64,000 nucleotides of DNA from Candidatus Nitrospira nitrosa (GTDB lineage Bacteria; Nitrospirota; Nitrospiria; Nitrospirales; Nitrospiraceae), in NCBI RefSeq assembly GCF_001458735.1, contig NZ_CZQA01000001.1:1116001-1180000 (forward strand). Direction: 5' to 3'. Positions 1 to 11,814 of the stretch are shown here, in pieces. Position 1 is the stretch's first letter, and each line of letters begins with the position of its first letter. The position numbers and the translations under genes are program-made. The notes beneath the pieces were generated by a model, which was given only the letters and a program-made list of their open reading frames with translations, searched no databases and was not told the origin of the DNA.

Positions 1-2484
1 CTCTCGTCGCAGTTAACCGCCCTACCGGGATGGACAGGGTATCTCAAGTGGCGATCTCAGCAAACGGACCATCCCTATCAGGAGGTCTACCCGGTTGACC
101 TCGTCAAATACCTGGCGGTCAGACTCTTCTATGAACGAGAACTTGTGCAGGAGGCCTGTCGGGATACCTTGGGGATAGACGGACAGGATGAGGCGATCCA
201 CCGTTTTGTCGTAGCCTATCCACACGCGTATCGCCTGCGTCGGACTTGGGTCAACGGACAGGTGCTGACTCCATTCCAACGGCAAGTTCGGCAGATGCTG
301 AAACCGAAGACTCGACATGCGCATCACAGTTGGGAAGAACTTGGCCTTCAGCACGAGGCCCATTGGCGTACACGCCAAGTTCACCAACGCCATCATCGGC
401 TGGCCTCACAGCTCATGCGCCTGTCGAAGGCACTTGCGGTAGATCCGGAGGCGATCCAAACAACCACCCGGTCAGACCTGCAGACATTATACGAATGGCT
501 GGAAGGCTGCTCATCGGCCCTGCAGTCTTCCATATGGTTGAACGCGTTCGAAGGAGGGTACAGAAGGCGAATCCTCCATGAGTTGACCGCAAGCCCCAGG
601 CAAGGTGAGGCGGATTCTGTCTCTCCTTCATTGCGAGCCTTAGCCCAGGTCGTTTTCTGCATCGACGTGCGTGCCGAAGTGTTTCGTCGGCATTTGGAGC
701 AGTTGGGTGGGTATGAAACATTCGGTCTTGCGGGATTCTTCGGCGTCCCGCTGGATTATCAGCCATTCGGCGCACATCAGCCTGTCGCGCACTGTCCTGT
801 TCTGCTGAAGCCAAAGAATCGGGTCCGCGAGGTTCCACGAAGTTACCAAGGCCTTTTGGTGGAAGAACGGAAACAAGCCGAACAGTTGGCTCGCACGGCT
901 ACTGAATTGCTGCATGACTTGAAGACCAACGTGGTGACACCCTATGTCATGGTCGAGGCGATCGGCTGGTTTTTTGGGGTTCCGCTGCTAGGCAGGACGC
1001 TCTTTCCTGCTTGGTATGCCAAGGTCAGACGATGGGCCCGACGAGTGTTCATGCCATCACTGGCCACCACCCTGACAGTGGAGACACTGCAACGGGAAGA
1101 GGCTGAGGAAATGGTCGCCACCGAACAGCGAGCGATCATTCGGGAGGTTGTCCGTCAACGGCTCGCTCTCGACGGCGCTGTGCTCTCGCCGACACTGCTC
1201 GATAAAATCAGACGAGTAGCGATCGGTGAAGCCGAAAATAGTCATGAGGACATTGTGAGGGTACTCGGCTTGACATCTGAAGCGCAGGCGGCCCTCTATC
1301 AAGAGTTACGCGATCGCCATCGGATCAGTCCAAGAGGAGTGTCCGCGTACTTAGGACGTCTCACACATACGGGATTTTCGGCGGGAGAACAAGCCTACCT
1401 TGTCGAGGCGGCCTTACGGCTCATGGGTCTCACAGCCAATTTCGCACGTGTTGTCCTGTTCTGTGCGCACGGCAGCACCTCGCAGAACAACCCATACGAA
1501 GCGGCGCTGGATTGCGGCGCCTGCGGTGGAAATCATGGATTGCCGAACGCTCGTACGATCGCGGCGATGGCCAATAAACCGACATTGCGGGAACTACTGA
1601 AAAAACGTGGGATCGTGATTCCTACGGATACACAGTTTTTGGCTGCAGAGCATGATACGACGACAGACTGTGTCCGCATCGTCGATTTGGAAGACGTTCC
1701 GGCTACTCACCGGAAAGATCTCGAGCGATTACTGCTCGATCTCGATCGAGCAGGGGGGCAGGTGTCGCTGGAACGGGCTCAAGCCTTGGCGCCACGAACT
1801 TCCCATAACGCCCGTTCGGCTCGGCAGTCAGCTAGACGAAGGAGTGAGGATTGGGCGGAAGTGAGACCTGAGTGGGGGCTGTCAAAAAACAGTTTGATTG
1901 TGATCGGCCGTCGCGCTTTGACCCAAGGCCTGAATCTAGAAGGTCGCTCGTTCCTCCATTCGTATGACTACAGGCAAGATGCGGCGGGCAAAATTCTGGA
2001 GGCGATTATGACCGCTCCGTTGGTGGTCGCGCAATGGATCAATATGGAGCACTATTTTTCGTCGGTCGATAACGAGGTGTACGGCAGCGGCAGTAAGGTC
2101 TACCATAATGTTGTGGGCCGTATCGGGGTTATGACCGGAGTTTGGAGCGACCTCAGACTTGGGCTTCCGGCTCAAACCGTCCTGAACGGGTCCGTGCCCT
2201 ACCATGAACCGATGAGGTTACTGACTATTATCGAAGGACCGAAGGATCGCATCGACCGGGTGATCGGCAAGCATCCCCTCTTGGACCAATTGATTACCCT
2301 GGGTTGGATCACCCTGATTTCGCTCGATCCGACGGACCACCGATGCTATCGGTATGATCGCGTCAGGGGCTGGATGAAGGAAACTCAGCAGCAAGGAGGC
2401 AGCAATCATGGCTGGACTGACATTGCACCCGATGAAGGAAATCAAGATCGTTGTGCAGGGCGAGCAATTGAAATTTGTCACTGA
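1..2484 (+). CDS. dabA: Inorganic carbon transporter subunit DabA (DUF2309), 5'-truncated by window edge
   Basis: The reading frame is open from base 1 and ends at 2484, so 827 residues are visible and the true start lies upstream. Early residues (LPGWTGYLKWR) match the DUF2309/DabA family. The beta-carbonic-anhydrase-like zinc site is visible: Cys and Asp in FCIDVR (codons at 658 and 664), His in FCAHGS (1468) and Cys in DCGACGG (1513-1524). DabA is known to work with a membrane NADH-dehydrogenase-like subunit DabB to drive one-way CO2 hydration and bicarbonate accumulation; dabB would be expected upstream, outside the window. The end overlaps the PII-like gene by 77 bp, implying translational coupling. 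Family assignment is firm; function as a carbon pump is inferred from characterised members. Confidence 0.93.
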   Translation, partial: LSSQLTALPGWTGYLKWRSQQTDHPYQEVYPVDLVKYLAVRLFYERELVQEACRDTLGIDGQDEAIHRFVVAYPHAYRLRRTWVNGQVLTPFQRQVRQMLKPKTRHAHHSWEELGLQHEAHWRTRQVHQRHHRLASQLMRLSKALAVDPEAIQTTTRSDLQTLYEWLEGCSSALQSSIWLNAFEGGYRRRILHELTASPRQGEADSVSPSLRALAQVVFCIDVRAEVFRRHLEQLGGYETFGLAGFFGVPLDYQPFGAHQPVAHCPVLLKPKNRVREVPRSYQGLLVEERKQAEQLARTATELLHDLKTNVVTPYVMVEAIGWFFGVPLLGRTLFPAWYAKVRRWARRVFMPSLATTLTVETLQREEAEEMVATEQRAIIREVVRQRLALDGAVLSPTLLDKIRRVAIGEAENSHEDIVRVLGLTSEAQAALYQELRDRHRISPRGVSAYLGRLTHTGFSAGEQAYLVEAALRLMGLTANFARVVLFCAHGSTSQNNPYEAALDCGACGGNHGLPNARTIAAMANKPTLRELLKKRGIVIPTDTQFLAAEHDTTTDCVRIVDLEDVPATHRKDLERLLLDLDRAGGQVSLERAQALAPRTSHNARSARQSARRRSEDWAEVRPEWGLSKNSLIVIGRRALTQGLNLEGRSFLHSYDYRQDAAGKILEAIMTAPLVVAQWINMEHYFSSVDNEVYGSGSKVYHNVVGRIGVMTGVWSDLRLGLPAQTVLNGSVPYHEPMRLLTIIEGPKDRIDRVIGKHPLLDQLITLGWITLISLDPTDHRCYRYDRVRGWMKETQQQGGSNHGWTDIAPDEGNQDRCAGRAIEICH

Positions 2485-2737
2485 GCTCTTAGACCGAACC
2501 GGCGCCACAGGCTATACCATCATCAACAACGTATCCGGTAAGGGACATGATGGTTTTCATGAAGGGCACCTGGTGTTTGATGATACCAGCAGCCAAGTGA
2601 TTGTGTTCACGGTCGTGCCTGATAGCAAGGTTGAGCCTATCTTGGCCGGGCTCGGTCCACTTTTCCATCGACACTCCGGTGCCATGTTCGTGAGCGATGT
2701 GGCAGTCAGCCGACGAGAGCACTTTACTCCACAATGA
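2408..2737 (+). CDS. PII-like signalling protein linked to DabA
   Basis: This 109-residue protein has the size and beta-alpha-beta pattern of PII/CPII proteins (MKEIKIVVQGEQ near the start, VFTVVPDSKVEPILAGLGPL in the second half) but no recognisable GlnB uridylylation T-loop. A strong ribosome site AAGGAGG (2393-2399) lies 8 bp before ATG 2408; a second in-frame ATG at 2432 is possible but has no such site. It begins inside the end of dabA. PII-like proteins beside bicarbonate transporters (SbtB, CPII) bind adenine nucleotides and sense carbon status, so control of the Dab pump is the likely role. That is an inference from position and fold. Confidence 0.8.
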   Translation: MAGLTLHPMKEIKIVVQGEQLKFVTELLDRTGATGYTIINNVSGKGHDGFHEGHLVFDDTSSQVIVFTVVPDSKVEPILAGLGPLFHRHSGAMFVSDVAVSRREHFTPQ

Positions 2738-3203: not shown

Positions 3204-3584
3204 TTAGTGTGTAGACGATTGTGTGATAGGTTCAAGCAGTTTAATAACGACAGTGCTGAGACCCGCTTCTGGGTCGAGATCCGTCACGATGTTTTGAACT
3301 TTGACACCGATGGCTTGCTCAATGCGGCCTCGCAGCACATGCTGACAAGAGTCAAACAAAGCCCGATGAAATCGACGGAGCAGCTCGTGACCGTCAGTTG
3401 ACCTGGCCAGTTCCTTCTCCGCCGGAATGGATGTGCTTCGGGCTGATGTGACGTAGATCAGTTCGTCATACGCGTGGGCTTGCACATGGGAATAGCCAGA
3501 CTTCATGAACTCGGTCTGAAAATCTAAAACAGCGAGCATGACCGCATATTCGATCTCCGCTTTGTTGGAGAGAACTCTAGCCAT
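3204..3584 (-). CDS. MpsC / DUF2294 family protein
   Basis: A 126-residue protein whose second half (LLRRFHRALFDSCQHVLRGR, then IEQAIGVKVQNIVTDLDPEA) matches the DUF2294 family. Some members are annotated MpsC, part of a sodium-translocating membrane-potential system in Gram-positives, but here there is no membrane segment and no MpsAB neighbour, so the name says little about function. It is the last gene of a minus-strand run (isocitrate dehydrogenase, its C-terminal-like partner, an unknown protein, this one) with only 3 bp to the gene before it. A GGGGAA stretch before ATG 3584 is a modest ribosome site. Confidence 0.7.
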   Translation of the reverse strand: MARVLSNKAEIEYAVMLAVLDFQTEFMKSGYSHVQAHAYDELIYVTSARSTSIPAEKELARSTDGHELLRRFHRALFDSCQHVLRGRIEQAIGVKVQNIVTDLDPEAGLSTVVIKLLEPITQSSTH

Positions 3585-3885: not shown

Positions 3886-4236
3886 TTAGTAAGCTTTGCT
3901 GAAGCCGGCCTCACCGTCGTAGTTCCATAACTTCTGCGCTGCGGACCACCACCAACCCTTCTTGCTCAGGGCGTCCAGGAAGGTATTGACGTCCGCATCC
4001 TGCACATCCTTGGTGGCCATGAACCGGCATCGGTACCAATTGACCTGAAGCAGATCAGGACTCACGAAGCCAGGCCAGACCTTCGTGCCTCTGTTCGAAA
4101 TGAATTCACATTTGAACGGTCCGATGTCATCGAACTTCGGAATGCCTTTGTCCGCGATGATGTACATATCGACTCCGACGAGTTTGATGTCTTTCTTCTT
4201 TTTGGTTGCCTTTGCAGTTTCAGTGAATGTTGGCAT
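3886..4236 (-). CDS. Stand-alone protein resembling the C-terminal domain of long isocitrate dehydrogenases
   Basis: A 116-residue protein with a lysine-rich N-terminus, then GVDMYI, FISNRGTKVWPG, WYRCRF and LWNYDGEAGFS. These blocks resemble, in the same order, the roughly 130-140 residue extension that follows the catalytic core in long (about 480-500 residue) bacterial isocitrate dehydrogenases; this comparison is from memory and not searched. A near-perfect ribosome site AAGGAGATATCC precedes ATG 4236. It lies 33 bp after a core-only isocitrate dehydrogenase on the same strand, so the two may form one enzyme from two chains. It could also be a paralogous small protein with another role. 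Confidence 0.65.
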   Translation of the reverse strand: MPTFTETAKATKKKKDIKLVGVDMYIIADKGIPKFDDIGPFKCEFISNRGTKVWPGFVSPDLLQVNWYRCRFMATKDVQDADVNTFLDALSKKGWWWSAAQKLWNYDGEAGFSKAY

Positions 4237-4269
4237 GGATATCTCCTTATTCAGTCCGGACTCTGAAGC

Positions 4270-5286
4270 TCAGGCCTTTGCGTGCATCTTGTCCACGATT
4301 GCTTGTGCATACTCGTCTGTTTTGGCGGTTCCACCGACGTCGTATGTCACATGTTTTCTCTCATCAAGCACGGCGAACATGGCCTTCTCGATTCGAGCAG
4401 CAGCAGCTTCTTCACCGAGCCAACGAAGCATCATGATGCCGGAGACCAGCACGGCTGAAGGATTAACCTTCTTCATGCCGGCGTATTTCGGCGCTGAGCC
4501 ATGGACGGCTTCGAAGATCGCGCATCCGTCGCCGACATTGGCGCCGGGTGCGAATCCCAAGCCTCCCACTAGTCCAGCACAGAGGTCCGTCAGGATGTCG
4601 CCGTAGAGGTTCGGGAGCACCAGGCAGTCGAACTGGGCAGGATTTCGCACCAACTGCATGCAGCAGTTATCCACGATAATGTCGCCGGACTCGATGTCCG
4701 GATACTTTTTAGCGACTTCCCGGAAGGCATCGAGAAAGAGACCGTCGGTCATCTTCATGATGTTGGCCTTGTGGACGCAGTAGATCTTCTTGCGTCCGTT
4801 GGCTTTCGCCCACTTAAACGCGAAGTCAGCAATCCGGTAGGAGCCTGGCCAGGTAATGACCTTGAGACATTGCGCGACTTCATCCGATACCATGTGCTCG
4901 ATGGCGGCGTAGCAGTCTTCGGTGTTCTCACGAAAGTTGATGATGTCGATCTTGTCCCAAGGCCGCTTGAGGACGGGGATGAGTTTGGCCGGCCGCACAT
5001 TCGCATAGAGATCAAAGACTTTACGGAGGGTCACATTGGCGCTCTTATGTCCGGTTCCAATCGGTGTGGTCGTGGGCCCCTTCAGGGCAACCTTGTTCTT
5101 CGCGATGTTTTGAATGGTCTTGTCAGGCAGGAGGGTGCCGTACTTCTCGAGGCAGTCGAGCCCAATGTCCTCATACTCCCACTTAATATTGACTCCGCTT
5201 GCATCGATGACGAGCCGCACCGCTTCGCAAATTTCCGGGCCGGTGCCTTCTCCCGGTAACATCGTGACGACATGCTGGTTCCCCAT
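4270..5286 (-). CDS. icd: Isocitrate dehydrogenase (NAD-type, core only)
   Basis: A 338-residue beta-decarboxylating dehydrogenase. Visible are MLPGEGTGPEICEAV at the N-terminus, the substrate-binding FRENTEDCYAAIEH, the metal-binding stretch LPNLYGDILTDLCAGLVGG and GCAIFEAVHGSAPKYAG. ATG 5286 is chosen because AGGGAGGT sits just upstream; a longer start at 5358 lacks a ribosome site and adds non-conserved sequence. It converts isocitrate to 2-oxoglutarate with NAD(P), or the reverse in a reductive TCA cycle. Isopropylmalate or homoisocitrate dehydrogenase are alternatives, but the ENTED-type loop and neighbours favour isocitrate. It heads a four-gene operon. The missing C-terminal extension appears to be supplied by the next gene. 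Confidence 0.88.
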   Translation of the reverse strand: MGNQHVVTMLPGEGTGPEICEAVRLVIDASGVNIKWEYEDIGLDCLEKYGTLLPDKTIQNIAKNKVALKGPTTTPIGTGHKSANVTLRKVFDLYANVRPAKLIPVLKRPWDKIDIINFRENTEDCYAAIEHMVSDEVAQCLKVITWPGSYRIADFAFKWAKANGRKKIYCVHKANIMKMTDGLFLDAFREVAKKYPDIESGDIIVDNCCMQLVRNPAQFDCLVLPNLYGDILTDLCAGLVGGLGFAPGANVGDGCAIFEAVHGSAPKYAGMKKVNPSAVLVSGIMMLRWLGEEAAAARIEKAMFAVLDERKHVTYDVGGTAKTDEYAQAIVDKMHAKA

Positions 5287-5600
5287 TGAAACCTCCCTTA
5301 AGCAGCAAGGGCGATCGGACCATCCGCTCCCCTTTCTTCTATGGGATGAGTAGTGCAAATGCGATTCCAGCCGAATTATTTTCTCGCTGGGTCAAGAGGG
5401 TATTAAAAATACAGGCAAATATGGGCAGAAGAGAGACTGGATGGATGTGCCGGGATCATGCTGGGCTTATGGGGCGTGCGCCAATACACGTGTTGCACGG
5501 AACCTCGTGCGCCTGTGCTCATCTCTGTAAGACGCATAGCGAGATCTCATGATGCCTCGCATAGGTACGCTCAGGACCAGGGGGGCGTAAGGAAATTATA
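5287..5600. other. Intergenic region upstream of icd
   Basis: About 314 bp between the icd start and the 3' end of the cysD relic. No supported gene. It should carry the icd promoter on the minus strand, but I could not place -10/-35 boxes with confidence. Confidence 0.4.
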
Positions 5601-6374
5601 TATGCCCAAGTTTGCGAAGCGTCTCAATGCCGCGGCCTTGCACCTGGGCACGACCGCTTCGCTCTGCAATGGTGGCGACGTGGAGTTCAGAAAGCATTTG
5701 TGGAATCGTCGAGGCACGACGACACAGTACCGGTGCAAGGCACACATCCGAGACTCCGATATCGCATCCCGTCACCTTGAGCGAAGTAGAGTGTAGGAAG
5801 AGGAACTCGTTCGAGCTCCAAATATTCCCAGATGTTTAGTTCCGTCCAGTCCAAGAGGGGATGCACGCGGATATGGGAGCCGGTCGGGAAGGTCGTAGTA
5901 AATTAATCTCAGAGCTTAGGGGGTTGATCCAGGAAATCCCATTCGCCATGCTTATCGCGCGATGAAAAATAACGCTCTTTGGCGCGTGTTCCTTCTTCAT
6001 CCGCACGAATCCCCAGAATGATGGCGGTCCGCTTGTGTTTGGCAATAGTTTTCTTGAGGGCCTCGATCCTCATGGCCGTATAGCAGGTCACACGGCCTTG
6101 TTCCGGGCCCATGCCTGCTGACAGTGCCTCGGAGTTCTGACCCACGACCAGATCGAGGTGCCATTCGCGACACTCGATGAGTTCCGGCATTTCGTAGCCG
6201 GAATCGATGTGAACGAGTGGGAACGACACATACCCAAAGAAGGCCTTGCGTGCGAGTCACAACAACACAATCGAGTCTTTTCCTATGGACCAGCATCGCC
6301 AGATCGGCAAAGTGCTTGTAGGCCTCGCGCAGAATGTAGACGCTTTGATCTTACAATGTCCGTAAATGCTTCAT
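5601..6374 (-). pseudogene. cysD: Decayed sulfate adenylyltransferase subunit 2 (cysD)
   Basis: Joining frames gives a nearly full-length CysD. It begins ATG 6374 (MKHLRTL), then DQSVYILREAYKHFADL, the PP-loop [68 protein letters not shown] and [13 protein letters not shown], and after a frameshift near 5709 ATIAERSGRAQ. Stops interrupt it at 6351-6353 (TAA), 6258-6260 (TGA where Trp of LLWLARKA is expected), 5909-5911 (TGA) and 5903-5905 (TAA). CysD pairs with CysN to make adenylylsulfate; no cysN is present here. The high residual similarity suggests recent inactivation. The decayed copy implies another route or another sulfate-activation locus. Confidence 0.88.
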
Positions 6375-6742
6375 TCTCTTCCCACCCTCATCAGTCTGTG
6401 TGGGGGGGGCGGTGCTGCTTCATGATGAACAGGGAAATTGGGATGCGCCTACAAAGAGAAGGGTAGATACAATGGGTTGTAACAGCATGGTTCGTGATCC
6501 GAGACTGTAGGAAAACTAGGAGCGAGCATCGGCCTGATGATTCCTACTGATATCATCGTGGCGTCAGAAATTCGTGCAATCGTCAGCCCCAAGGATGCGT
6601 TGGAAGAAGTGAGGAACAGTTGCTCACATATCATCTATAAACTGGAAGAGCTGGATGGTGGTATCAGGGAGGCGTCTATGGACTGTGCTGTAGATTGTGT
6701 GTCAGCGCACAAGCCTGCGTGTGAATGTGCGTCGGTGCTCGC
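6375..6742. other. Intergenic region between cysD relic and response regulator
   Basis: No convincing gene. A plus-strand frame at 6537-6746 (69 codons) lacks a well-spaced ribosome site, has no recognisable motif and runs into the end of the response regulator. Confidence 0.4.
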
Positions 6743-8146
6743 TTAGGGATTGTTGGGCTTGCGTCGTCGGTCCAGCATCCAGCGGGTGATACCAAGATGC
6801 TTGGCAGCCAGAGATTTATTTCCATCGGACCGTTGTAATACTTCGCTGATGATGCGGTCCTCAAGGTCCGTTAAGGATTCACCGAGGTGGAATGAAAGGT
6901 GGATCTGAGCGGGATCCGTCGTATCTGACATCGATCTAGGAGGAGCCGTATCAGCGATCGGCTGCACGGGAGTTTCTCGCACGTCAGAGGGGAAATGCCC
7001 TGCTTCAAGCGTTTCACCAGGGCAGAAGAGTACCGCCCGTTCTATGAGATTACTCAATTCACGCACATTGCCGGGAAAGTGGTACTGCTGTAACAGCGTT
7101 TCCGCGCTGGTTCCCAGTGCCCGAACCGGTTTCCGAAGTGACAGTGCGGAGCGGGCTAAAAATTGCTTCGCTAGCAGGATGATGTCATCCGGCCGTTCCC
7201 GCAACGGGGGAATTGTGAGGGTCACGACATTCAGTCGGAAATAGAGATCTTCGCGAAATTCGCCCTTGGCAACCGCATCCTTCAGATTGCGATTCGTGGC
7301 CGCCATGAAACGCACATCCACCGGGATCGTGGCTGATCCCCCGACACGGCGGAGCGTCCGTTCTTCGATGACCCGCAAGAGCTTCGCTTGTAACGGGAGG
7401 GGGAGGTCACCGATCTCGTCGAACATGAGGGTTCCCCCCTCCGCGAGTTCGATCAAGCCAGTCTTGCGGCCTATTGCTCCAGTAAATGATCCTTTCTCAT
7501 GGCCAACGAGCTCACTCTCAAAGAGTTCCCGTGGAATCGATGGACAGTCGACTTCGATACAGGGTTTGTGGGCTCTGGCGCTGTTATAGTGGATCACCCG
7601 GCCCATGTATTGTTTCCCGGTGCCGGTCTCGCCCTGGAGTAACACGGTGACACGGTCGTTCTTGGCGAGCTCCCGGACCTGGCTCATGAAGTGCTGAGTG
7701 ACGGGGCTTTTGGCAATGACCCGGTCGAGCGCGTATCGGTCAGCGTCTTGCCCGCTCTGCATATGAACCTGGCGCTGCAACGTCAGCAGCTGCGTCGCTC
7801 TGCTCAACGCGTGCAGGAGGTCTTCCATGTCGATGGATTTGGCCACGAAGTCGAAGGCTCCCAGTTTCGTCGCCTCGACGGCATCTTTGACCGTGCCCCT
7901 TGCAGTGACGAGGATAACCAGCAAGTTTGGCGAGCTCTGTTTGACACGGGCCAGCACGTCCAGGCCCGTGAGATTCGGCATGACCAGATCAAGCACGAGA
8001 ATATCCGGTTCAGTCGTACGGAGCAGCCCAAGCGCTTCCTCGCCGGAACTCGCGGTCTGGACCATATAGCCGTGATCGCTGAGGCGCAGCGCGAAGGCTT
8101 CGCGAACAGACGTTTCATCTTCAACGAGAAGGAGTTGCCAGGTCAT
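6743..8146 (-). CDS. NtrC-family sigma-54-dependent response regulator
   Basis: A 467-residue regulator in three parts: receiver domain (residues 1-120, acidic pocket VEDE, phospho-acceptor in VLDLVMPN, conserved Lys in FVAKS), AAA+ domain (about 145-375, Walker A GETGTGK, sigma-54 contact loop GSFTGA, Walker B LMFDEIGDLP, arginine-rich RLNVVTLTIPPLRER) and a Fis-type helix-turn-helix at the end (LAAKHLGITRWMLDRR). The contact loop reads GSFTGA rather than the usual GAFTGA. It starts 1 bp after the histidine kinase stop, so kinase and regulator are an operon and a cognate pair. It would activate sigma-54 promoters; targets are unknown. Confidence 0.93.
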   Translation of the reverse strand: MTWQLLLVEDETSVREAFALRLSDHGYMVQTASSGEEALGLLRTTEPDILVLDLVMPNLTGLDVLARVKQSSPNLLVILVTARGTVKDAVEATKLGAFDFVAKSIDMEDLLHALSRATQLLTLQRQVHMQSGQDADRYALDRVIAKSPVTQHFMSQVRELAKNDRVTVLLQGETGTGKQYMGRVIHYNSARAHKPCIEVDCPSIPRELFESELVGHEKGSFTGAIGRKTGLIELAEGGTLMFDEIGDLPLPLQAKLLRVIEERTLRRVGGSATIPVDVRFMAATNRNLKDAVAKGEFREDLYFRLNVVTLTIPPLRERPDDIILLAKQFLARSALSLRKPVRALGTSAETLLQQYHFPGNVRELSNLIERAVLFCPGETLEAGHFPSDVRETPVQPIADTAPPRSMSDTTDPAQIHLSFHLGESLTDLEDRIISEVLQRSDGNKSLAAKHLGITRWMLDRRRKPNNP

Positions 8147-8147
8147 G

Positions 8148-10136
8148 TTATCGCTCGGGGTTCAAGGGAAGCCACACTTCCACCACTGCTCCGCTGCCGG
8201 GTGGACTTGTGATGACCAGTTGCCCACCATGTCGTTCGATAATATCGTGTGTGATGGTGAGTCCAAGCCCAACGCCCTTGGCTTTCCCACTGGTGAAGAA
8301 CGGCTCGAAAATCCGTTTGAGATTGTCAGGGTCAATCCCCTTTCCCGTATCAGAGAAAGCAAGAAGTACACCAGTGCCTCGCCTGGGTTCCATTCGTATC
8401 GTGATCGTGAGTTCTCCACCATTCGGCATGGCGTCGATCGCATTCATCGCGATGTTGAGACAGACCTGCTGAAGATGCGCACGAGAGGCTTCCACGAGCG
8501 GCAGGTCTGGAGCAATCGCCTTTCGTATGTGAATGTTCTGTTTGGTCAAGTTTGGTTTCAGCAAGGTCATGGTGTCATCGATGAGCGAGGGAAGATTGCA
8601 GGGATGTAGATCAAAGGGACGTGGTCGAAGTTGGCTTAAGTGAGACTCCAACAGCTCGTCAATACGAGTGGCTTCCCGTGCGATGAGCCGACAGCGATCT
8701 CTAGCCGCTTGCGGCAAGTGTTCTTGATCGGCTAAGTGGGTTGCGAGGCTACCGAGCCCAATCAATGGATTGCGGACTTCGTGCAAAATACCACCGGTCA
8801 ATTGTCCGACCAGTTTGATTTGCTCCGCATGTCGTAAGGCTTCTAGCATCTGCTCGCGCTCGGTCAAGTCGGTGAGGATGGCCATGTAGTACTGTGTTGT
8901 GCCGTCACGATCTTTCACCGGGCTCACGCTTTCCCAGACGAGGAATTCCGAGCCATCCTTCCGTCGATTCACGAACCGATCGACGAACGGATGTCCGGCC
9001 CCAAGCGCCTGCCAGAGCCGGTCGTAAAATTCTTGCCCATGTTTTCCCGACTTGAGAATAGAAGGGCGTTGTCCCAATGCTTCTTCGCTGGTCCATCCGG
9101 TCATTCGTTCGAGCGCGGGGTTCCACTCCAAGATTCGGCCCTCGGTGTCGGTCAACATGATCCCGTCTTGCGCCGTCATAAACAACCGATGGTAGAGATC
9201 CCGTTGCGTATCGGCGCGCCGTCGTCGTTCCAGTACCGTCGCGACGGTATTGGCGACCGTACAAAGAAACTCGAGTTCCGTCACCGTATAATCTCGGACC
9301 GACCTGGAATGGGCGGTCATGGCTCCATAGACACGATCCTCCACCAACATTGGGACGCACATGCCTGCGATCCCGCCATGTTCGGTTAAGAGTTTGGAGG
9401 GACTGAACCGTGTTTCCCTCCGTAGATCCCGGACGACCACGGGGAGCCGTTCACGAATGGCGTAGCCGGCTTGCGAATGGGTGCCACCCTCGATCGTCAG
9501 CTTTCCGATCACCGTTGAGTCAAGGCCGATTCCTGCCACCACGGTTAAGTGATCATCTGATTCTTGTGGGACAAGAATCTTGCACAGCTCCACGCCAAGG
9601 GCCTCAGCTGTATATTTGACCGCTTCGGTCATCAGTTCTTGTGCCGGTGCATCGGTGACAGCAAGCGTTCCGATGCGGGCCAGCACGGACTGAAACCGAG
9701 CGATCTGCGAGGCTTCCTGGACCAACTCCGTATGTTCGGTGGCGTCCTGTAGGACCAACAGTACGCCGGTCTCCCCATGGTAGGGGACCACGTGATATCG
9801 GCATTCGTAGACGAGCGTTTGGCCTTGGCGATCGAGGAGACGATAGGTCTTGCTGCCTCTTGCACCGAGGCTGTCCCTATTCCAGGTCATCGCATCAGCA
9901 AAGAGCTGTGATCGAAGCGTTGCATCATGGCCGGACCGGTCGCCTGATGGCGAAGCCGAGGCTTCAACCAGTTCGCCGAACTGCGAATTCTCAAATACCA
10001 GGATCCCCTTGGCCATGAAACACAGTCCGCCCTCCAAGCAATCACTCACCCAAGCCAATACTTCCGCTGCGGCGACCTCCGGACTGGCGTGAATAGAGCT
10101 CTTGGACTGAGAGACAGATGTCGTGCGACGTTTCAC
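8148..10136 (-). CDS. PAS/GAF sensor histidine kinase
   Basis: A 662-residue soluble kinase. Order: N-terminal PAS-like region (about 30-150), GAF domain (about 160-310, CVPMLVEDRVYGAMTAHS), PAS/PAC (about 315-435, GIMLTDTEGRILEWNPALER), HisKA with phospho-acceptor His in GGILHEVRNPLIGLG, then the ATPase domain with N box QVCLNIAMNAIDAMPNGG, G1 DTGKGID and G2 GKAKGVGLGLT. The start is GTG 10136 with GAGG about 6 bp upstream. No membrane segment is visible, so the signal is probably cytoplasmic (redox, gas or small ligand). Its regulator follows directly. Confidence 0.92.
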   Translation of the reverse strand: MKRRTTSVSQSKSSIHASPEVAAAEVLAWVSDCLEGGLCFMAKGILVFENSQFGELVEASASPSGDRSGHDATLRSQLFADAMTWNRDSLGARGSKTYRLLDRQGQTLVYECRYHVVPYHGETGVLLVLQDATEHTELVQEASQIARFQSVLARIGTLAVTDAPAQELMTEAVKYTAEALGVELCKILVPQESDDHLTVVAGIGLDSTVIGKLTIEGGTHSQAGYAIRERLPVVVRDLRRETRFSPSKLLTEHGGIAGMCVPMLVEDRVYGAMTAHSRSVRDYTVTELEFLCTVANTVATVLERRRRADTQRDLYHRLFMTAQDGIMLTDTEGRILEWNPALERMTGWTSEEALGQRPSILKSGKHGQEFYDRLWQALGAGHPFVDRFVNRRKDGSEFLVWESVSPVKDRDGTTQYYMAILTDLTEREQMLEALRHAEQIKLVGQLTGGILHEVRNPLIGLGSLATHLADQEHLPQAARDRCRLIAREATRIDELLESHLSQLRPRPFDLHPCNLPSLIDDTMTLLKPNLTKQNIHIRKAIAPDLPLVEASRAHLQQVCLNIAMNAIDAMPNGGELTITIRMEPRRGTGVLLAFSDTGKGIDPDNLKRIFEPFFTSGKAKGVGLGLTITHDIIERHGGQLVITSPPGSGAVVEVWLPLNPER

Positions 10137-10314: not shown

Positions 10315-11814
10315 GTGAGGCTCGTGATACAGAATGGAATGCCCCGGCGAACGCTTGAAACGCTTTCCTTCGACAATACCTATGCCCGGCTTCCTCAGGC
10401 CTTTTATGCGCGATTGAACCCGACTTCCTTTAGTGCACCTCCCTATTTGGTCCATGCCAATCGATCTGCCGCCGAGTTGATCGATCTTGATCCAGGGCAA
10501 TTGACTCGGCCGGCGTTCGCGGAGCTGTTCGGGGGGAATGCACTCGCGCCCGGCATGGAGCCGCTCGCGATGCTGTATTCCGGTCATCAATTCGGCGTCT
10601 ATGTTCCGCAACTCGGGGACGGCCGAGCGATTCTCCTTGGTGAAGCAACGAACGAGCAAGGGGAGCGGTGGGATCTCCATCTCAAAGGAGCGGGGCTAAC
10701 GCCGTTTTCACGCGATGGGGACGGCCGGGCCGTACTGCGTTCGACAATCCGTGAATATCTCTGTTGCGCGGCGATGCGTGGCCTTGGGATTCCAACGACA
10801 CTGGCGCTCTGTCTCGTCGGTAGTGATGACAAGGTGTATCGCGAACAGATTGAAACCGGCGCGATGCTGGTCCGCATGGCGCCGTCGCACGTCCGCTTCG
10901 GCACATTCGAGATCTTCTACTACCGAAAGCAGTATGACCATCTGAAAATTCTTGCCGACTATGTGATCGACCAGCACTTCCCCCATCTCCGCGACGTCAA
11001 TGAGAAGTATGCGAAATTCTTTACTGAGGTGGTCGAGCGCACCGCCCGATTGCTCGCGCAATGGCAAGCCGTGGGTTGGGCTCATGGGGTGATGAACACC
11101 GACAATATGTCGATTCTCGGTCTCACGATGGACTACGGGCCGTATGGATTCATGGATGACTACGACGCAGGTTTCATCTGTAACCATTCGGATCATAACG
11201 GTCGCTACGCCTTCAATCAGCAACCCTACATCGGGCTCTGGAATCTGAGCTGCTTGGCGCAAGCCCTGTTGCCATTGGCGGAGAAAGACGCGCTCAAAGC
11301 GGGCCTTGAGACCTATCAGTCATTGTTTGAGCAGGAATACCAGAAGCTCATGCGAGCGAAATTGGGATTGGTCGAGATGCGAGCAGAAGACCATGACCTC
11401 ATTCAAGACTTTCTGGGTCTGCTCCAGGGCAGTCATGCCGATTACACGATCGTGCTTCGCGAATTGGGTACGTTTGCTTCTTCGGAAGGTATGACGAATG
11501 ACGGCTTGCGCGAACATTTTCTCAATCGTGATCGGTTTGACGAGTGGGCGGTGCGCTATCGGGACCGACTGAGGAGTGAGCGCAGCCGCGATGACGAACG
11601 GTGGAATCGAATGAATCGTGTCAACCCTAAGTATGTGTTGCGGAATTATCTTGCGCAGATCGCGATTGAGAAAGCACAGAACAAGGACTTCTCCGAGATC
11701 GACCGGCTCTTCACCCTGTTGCAAGATCCCTTCAAGGATCAGCAGGGCATGGAGTCCTATGCCCTTCCTCCGCCGAATTGGGGCAAGCATTTGGCTGTCA
11801 GTTGTTCCTCCTGA
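10315..11814 (+). CDS. selO: Protein adenylyltransferase SelO (YdiU/UPF0061)
   Basis: A 499-residue pseudokinase that attaches AMP to proteins. Conserved stretches: LETLSFDNTYARLP at the start, MLYSGHQFGVYVPQLGDGRA, the ATP-site LHLKGAGLTPFSRDGDGRAV, HGVMNTDNMSILGLTMDYGP and FMDDYDAGFICNHSDHNGRY. The end is WGKHLAVSCSS; eukaryotic SelO has selenocysteine near this point and bacteria usually cysteine, as here. GTG 10315 has a weak AAGG upstream; ATG 10339 is an equally possible start. It is divergent from the kinase operon and stands alone. SelO is linked to redox stress responses in other bacteria. Confidence 0.9.
   Translation: MRLVIQNGMPRRTLETLSFDNTYARLPQAFYARLNPTSFSAPPYLVHANRSAAELIDLDPGQLTRPAFAELFGGNALAPGMEPLAMLYSGHQFGVYVPQLGDGRAILLGEATNEQGERWDLHLKGAGLTPFSRDGDGRAVLRSTIREYLCCAAMRGLGIPTTLALCLVGSDDKVYREQIETGAMLVRMAPSHVRFGTFEIFYYRKQYDHLKILADYVIDQHFPHLRDVNEKYAKFFTEVVERTARLLAQWQAVGWAHGVMNTDNMSILGLTMDYGPYGFMDDYDAGFICNHSDHNGRYAFNQQPYIGLWNLSCLAQALLPLAEKDALKAGLETYQSLFEQEYQKLMRAKLGLVEMRAEDHDLIQDFLGLLQGSHADYTIVLRELGTFASSEGMTNDGLREHFLNRDRFDEWAVRYRDRLRSERSRDDERWNRMNRVNPKYVLRNYLAQIAIEKAQNKDFSEIDRLFTLLQDPFKDQQGMESYALPPPNWGKHLAVSCSS

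Follow-up and report, generated by a model that had tools for sequence, protein, structure and literature searches.

Organization of the locus

The window, that is, the whole 64,000-nucleotide stretch of DNA analysed here, belongs to a 4.4 Mb genome (G000), and its nearest related loci are from Nitrospira. On the minus strand it carries an isocitrate dehydrogenase (IDH) in two parts: a catalytic core of 338 amino acids (positions 4270-5286), recognized by the PF00180 profile and by alignment, and, downstream of it, a detached C-terminal (C2 clasp-like) domain protein of 116 amino acids with its own ATG (3886-4236), recognized by PF18324 and its match to the Thermus enzyme 2D1C. The two-gene layout described in the sequence-only reading proved exact, including the 33-bp intergenic spacer (4237-4269, minus strand), which keeps the two genes in one frame here, unlike in most relatives. 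A Shine-Dalgarno sequence (AAGGAG, 4243-4248, minus strand) precedes the small gene, whose start region reads AAGGAG-ATATCC-ATG, and a Shine-Dalgarno-like AAGGGAGG can be read in the sequence before the core gene (5292-5299, minus strand). In other bacteria the long IDH is made as a single chain. The comparisons given below confirm that this pair of an IDH core and a small clasp-domain gene is genuine and conserved in Nitrospira and Leptospirillum.

The surrounding genes are considered as context only. They include the 3' part of dabA, for inorganic carbon uptake (145-2484, plus strand), a P-II protein after it (2408-2737, plus strand), an MpsC-domain protein downstream of the pair (3204-3584, minus strand), and a sigma-54 response regulator with a PAS/GAF histidine kinase (6743-10136, minus strand). 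The full DabA has 1117 residues and starts upstream of the window (G000:C1:1113000-1118800), so that its N-terminal part is missing from the window; it is preceded by a 570-residue membrane protein that looks DabB-like by eye. DabA, the sigma-54 regulator and the histidine kinase recur near the pair in Nitrospira and Leptospirillum loci, not at every locus and with many contigs cut, while MpsC recurred, by the same search, in Nitrospira loci only. Besides, the window holds a SelO protein adenylyltransferase gene (10315-11814, plus strand; PF02696, 491 bits) and a PAPS-reductase domain fragment (5909-6398, minus strand) covering positions 26-127 of 175 in the PF01507 profile, from which the N-terminal portion is separated by a stop and a change of frame; an intact 265-residue relative occurs in locus L036, and the fragment looks like a decaying gene.

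Identity of the two chains

It had been proposed from the sequence that the small protein corresponds to the C-terminal extension of long IDHs, and both the profile and the fold comparison bear this out. The protein matched PF18324 (Isocitrate_DH_C_bact) over model positions 3-107 of 110 (E-value 1.6e-14, 54.3 bits), above the gathering cut-off of 25 bits, and the sole PDB sequence that it matched by phmmer was the Thermus IDH 2D1C, at residues 388-492 (E-value 1.8e-9). When the small protein was modelled by itself with AlphaFold (pLDDT 74.3, pTM 0.65), Foldseek likewise gave 2D1C as the single match with an E-value under 0.001 (1.3e-5, 31% identity), and seven residues (G21, D23, N48, G50, P55, R71, and L103) were invariant across 20 split and 32 fused domains. 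These results show that the small protein is a homologue of the C2 clasp-like domain, encoded by a conserved gene of its own. Its identity to the closest fused domains is only about 35-38%, so that its function may have shifted. The C2 domain of subfamily IV IDHs has been described (PMC3521221), and we found no paper in the open-access literature describing a split IDH or PF18324.

The core matched PF00180 (Iso_dh) over its full length (positions 2-348 of 348; 339 bits, reaching the gathering score) and aligned end to end with the Thermus IDH 2D1C (E-value 6e-104). Neither NCBIfam equivalog model claimed it: under the long NADP-IDH model PRK09222 the core scored 397.7 and the small protein 49.3 bits, below the cut-off of 509, and under the short IDH model PRK08997 the core scored 423 bits, its best NCBIfam score, below the cut-off of 510. 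The clasp of the core, EHMVSDEVAQCLK, aligned with EHMQTPSVAQTLK of Thermus and, as judged from its sequence, is a reduced two-strand clasp (C1); within it, H131, V137, Q139, and L141 are common to the core and the fused IDHs and are not found in the sister short IDHs. The reduced clasp is only supportive of a link to long IDHs, because human IDH3A and the Xanthomonas IDH have one without a C2 domain. According to the motif alignment, the core carries the NADP-type residues K267, Y268, and Y315, which we take to correspond to E. coli K344, Y345, and Y391; the NADP-binding set of E. coli also includes R395, and the equivalent position of the core is not an arginine. The NAD-type pair DI occurs in most fused IDHs of our set and KY in Thermus. 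Regarding the features of subfamily IV, the single chain of 480-500 residues is replaced here by two genes of 338 and 116 amino acids, and the C2 clasp-like domain is supplied by the separate protein.

Distribution and other isocitrate dehydrogenases of the hosts

Our survey covered two phyla, with 396 Nitrospirota genomes and 296 genomes of a phylum identified as Bacteroidota from a locus titled Taibaiella (L056). Among the Nitrospirota, the small gene stands alone in 52 genomes and is fused in one. The core clade, defined by at least 82% identity to the core of the window, was present in 51 of the 396 genomes (33 from the family of the window, 17 from the Leptospirillum family, and one, G157, from another family), and all 51 also carry the small gene. 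Since the family of the window contributes about 110 genomes by hand count, roughly 30% of its members would hold the pair. In the Bacteroidota, all 83 matches lay in open frames of at least 460 amino acids and so were fused, and a search of plasmids yielded nothing but a fused Deinococcus IDH. The one fused long IDH of the Nitrospirota sample (G268, contig C31, locus L128) groups with the Bacteroidota-type fused IDHs, which suggests transfer or misbinning. A small-gene remnant and no IDH core were observed at three places: G175, the only one of the 52 genomes with a standalone small gene that has no such core, where a TAG lies within the small gene (C13:135217-135447), L053 (5854-6240), whose remnant has an internal stop, and L055; DabA and P-II are kept in L053 and L055, and the three apparently reflect secondary loss.

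A full-length IDH elsewhere in the genome, coupled with no predicted complex, had been named beforehand as a point against a two-chain enzyme, and this objection holds by half: the window genome does encode a complete monomeric IDH (PF03971, 1330 bits), but of an unrelated family. The split IDH is thus not the only IDH of the window genome. The monomeric enzyme was found in 112 of 114 good genomes of the window's family and was absent from all 21 Leptospirillum-family genomes, many of which have a further Iso_dh protein of about 418 amino acids; one of these, read out from locus L200, is E. coli-like by eye. In G010 (99% complete) only leuB and the split core were found, while G125, which lacks the monomeric IDH, also has an E. 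coli-like IDH. Because other IDHs are present in most hosts, the split enzyme is usually a second IDH. In some relatives of Leptospirillum it could be the sole IDH, although the proteins of about 418 amino acids exclude this for the Leptospirillum family as a whole.

A two-chain enzyme as the probable reading

We consider it quite probable that the pair forms a two-chain IDH of subfamily IV (the Thermus/Rickettsia type), with the C2 domain binding the core dimer in trans. The small chain would fold alone and bind to the dimeric core across its clasp, the assembled enzyme would be an a2b2 complex, and the small chain could stabilize the core dimer, a function proposed for the fused domain in Thermus. 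This reading is supported by consecutive genes that are inherited together and under purifying selection. Structural modelling of the joined chain, as read-through would produce it, gave a weak model (pLDDT 68.0, pTM 0.55, linker below 50), whose best match by E-value was 2D1C over all 495 columns at an rmsd of 17.6 A, so that the domain placement of Thermus was not reproduced. Besides, a monomer model is unable to show a clasp that spans a dimer, and we discarded the joined-chain model as proof of a complex, given its low pTM and because it cannot be superposed on 2D1C.

Counted against a two-chain enzyme are the second IDH of most hosts and the fact that subfamily III IDHs work without a C2 domain. 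Accordingly, the core might be complete alone, in the manner of subfamily III, with the small protein acting as an optional regulator or stabilizer or having moved to another partner such as the monomeric IDH or a metabolon. This would agree with the short relatives that lack the domain and with the preference of the core for the short-IDH model PRK08997, and a metabolon has indeed been suggested for N. moscoviensis (PMC8407350). We nevertheless regard such a self-sufficient core as unlikely, though worth keeping in mind, since the small gene strictly co-occurs with the core and adjoins it, retains the motifs common to the fused domains, and may be present or not in Nitrospiraceae that nearly all have the monomeric IDH.

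Separate translation and selection

In the window, the frames of the core and the small gene are in register with one TGA between them, and for this reason stop-codon read-through, or an ongoing fission with a fused long IDH as the working product, had to be weighed against a two-chain enzyme. Among 53 related loci and further loci of the searched genomes, the two genes are found together repeatedly, the core lying immediately upstream of the small gene in the same orientation. The gaps are mostly 10-38 bp and at most 74 bp, excluding L022, which has a misplaced start. In that locus (2168-2554) the small gene lacks the usual ATG and start context, possibly through a frameshift or an assembly error. 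The frame offset between the two genes is 0, +1 or +2 among the relatives, most of them being out of frame, and some of the in-frame relatives have several stops; these offsets rule out read-through of a single TGA as the mechanism. The ribosome site of the small gene, which the sequence-only reading had taken as a sign of independent translation, is also conserved, as an AAGGAG-like sequence precedes the gene in nearly all homologous loci. A fused working product is therefore very improbable.

The small gene had a median dN/dS of 0.082 (113 usable pairs from 28 loci) and the core one of 0.046. Given the recurrence of the pair, the ribosome sites, and these ratios, the small protein is very likely translated separately and kept under purifying selection. 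An assembly error or a decaying long IDH, for which the isolated relics in G175 and L053 could be adduced, is hardly credible and was excluded, considering the dN/dS of about 0.08 and the conservation in some 50 other loci, among them two pairs (L023 and L032) in the closed chromosome of N. moscoviensis. The latter two are divergent copies of the split pair on one chromosome.

Evolutionary origin

In the core tree (61 rows), the split cores grouped in a single clade (100/99), with the short Nitrospirota IDHs as its sister group (98/93). Constraining the split and the compact fused IDHs to one clade was not rejected (p-AU 0.116), nor was a clade of the split and all fused IDHs (p-AU 0.255). Both the fission of a fused ancestor and the persistence of an originally separate gene are possible.

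Possible role and significance

IDH is an enzyme of central metabolism, and its step in the reductive TCA cycle is uphill. The hosts of the pair fix CO2 by this cycle, and many copies adjoin a gene for inorganic carbon uptake, so that a second, NADP-linked IDH acting within or close to the reductive TCA cycle can be proposed, as a weaker inference than those above; a reductive role of the split IDH would be reasonable on these grounds. The presence of DabA beside many copies fits a role in CO2 fixation and is no proof regarding flux. For N. moscoviensis, a published study reports carbon fixation by the reductive TCA cycle and places IDH, with the isoform unspecified in the text, among the most abundant TCA enzymes (PMC8407350). 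In Leptospirillum ferrooxidans, an idh termed NAD-dependent, which may or may not be the split core, was induced more than 20-fold in planktonic cells (PMC2996932). A more ambitious version, in which an obligate a2b2 IDH with a separable clasp subunit would be specialized for reductive carboxylation and tied to the adjacent DAB uptake system, the small chain tuning stability or direction, is speculative and seems to us rather doubtful.

The role of the C2 domain in long IDHs is poorly understood, and with a naturally separate C2 the domain can be supplied, left out or varied in amount without any need to engineer the enzyme. Moreover, the pair points to a second IDH in important nitrite- and iron-oxidising bacteria. 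Its annotation as a plain 'isocitrate dehydrogenase' next to an unassigned small gene could introduce errors into models of metabolism that describe the reductive TCA cycle.

Comparison with known systems

The monomeric IDH (PF03971) performs the same reaction in the same genome, but it belongs to an unrelated domain family, has about 745 amino acids, and contains no C2 domain. The subfamily III IDHs (human IDH3A, Xanthomonas 6LTF) resemble the split core in length, fold, and reduced clasp and differ from it in their NAD-type residues and the absence of a C2 domain; in addition, the multi-chain IDH3 enzymes pair homologous core subunits, whereas the pair of the window combines a core with a detached domain. 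The short Nitrospirota IDHs (about 360 amino acids) have K267, Y268, and Y315 in common with the split core but lack a C-terminal domain and carry ~20 inserted residues in the clasp, and no small-domain gene was found beside them by HMM within flanks of about 1.5 kb.

Among the fused enzymes, the compact IDHs of about 460 amino acids from the phylum of Taibaiella provide the nearest domain-bearing cores (53-59% identity) and the nearest C-terminal domains (35-38%); they differ in being fused and in having the NAD-type DI where the split core has KY. The core tree does not place Thermus with the split clade. The Thermus thermophilus IDH (2D1C, subfamily IV) is alike in its NADP-type KY pair and its reduced clasp, and both parts of the split enzyme can be aligned with it, the difference being that Thermus makes one chain of 496 residues and the window encodes two genes with no covalent linker.
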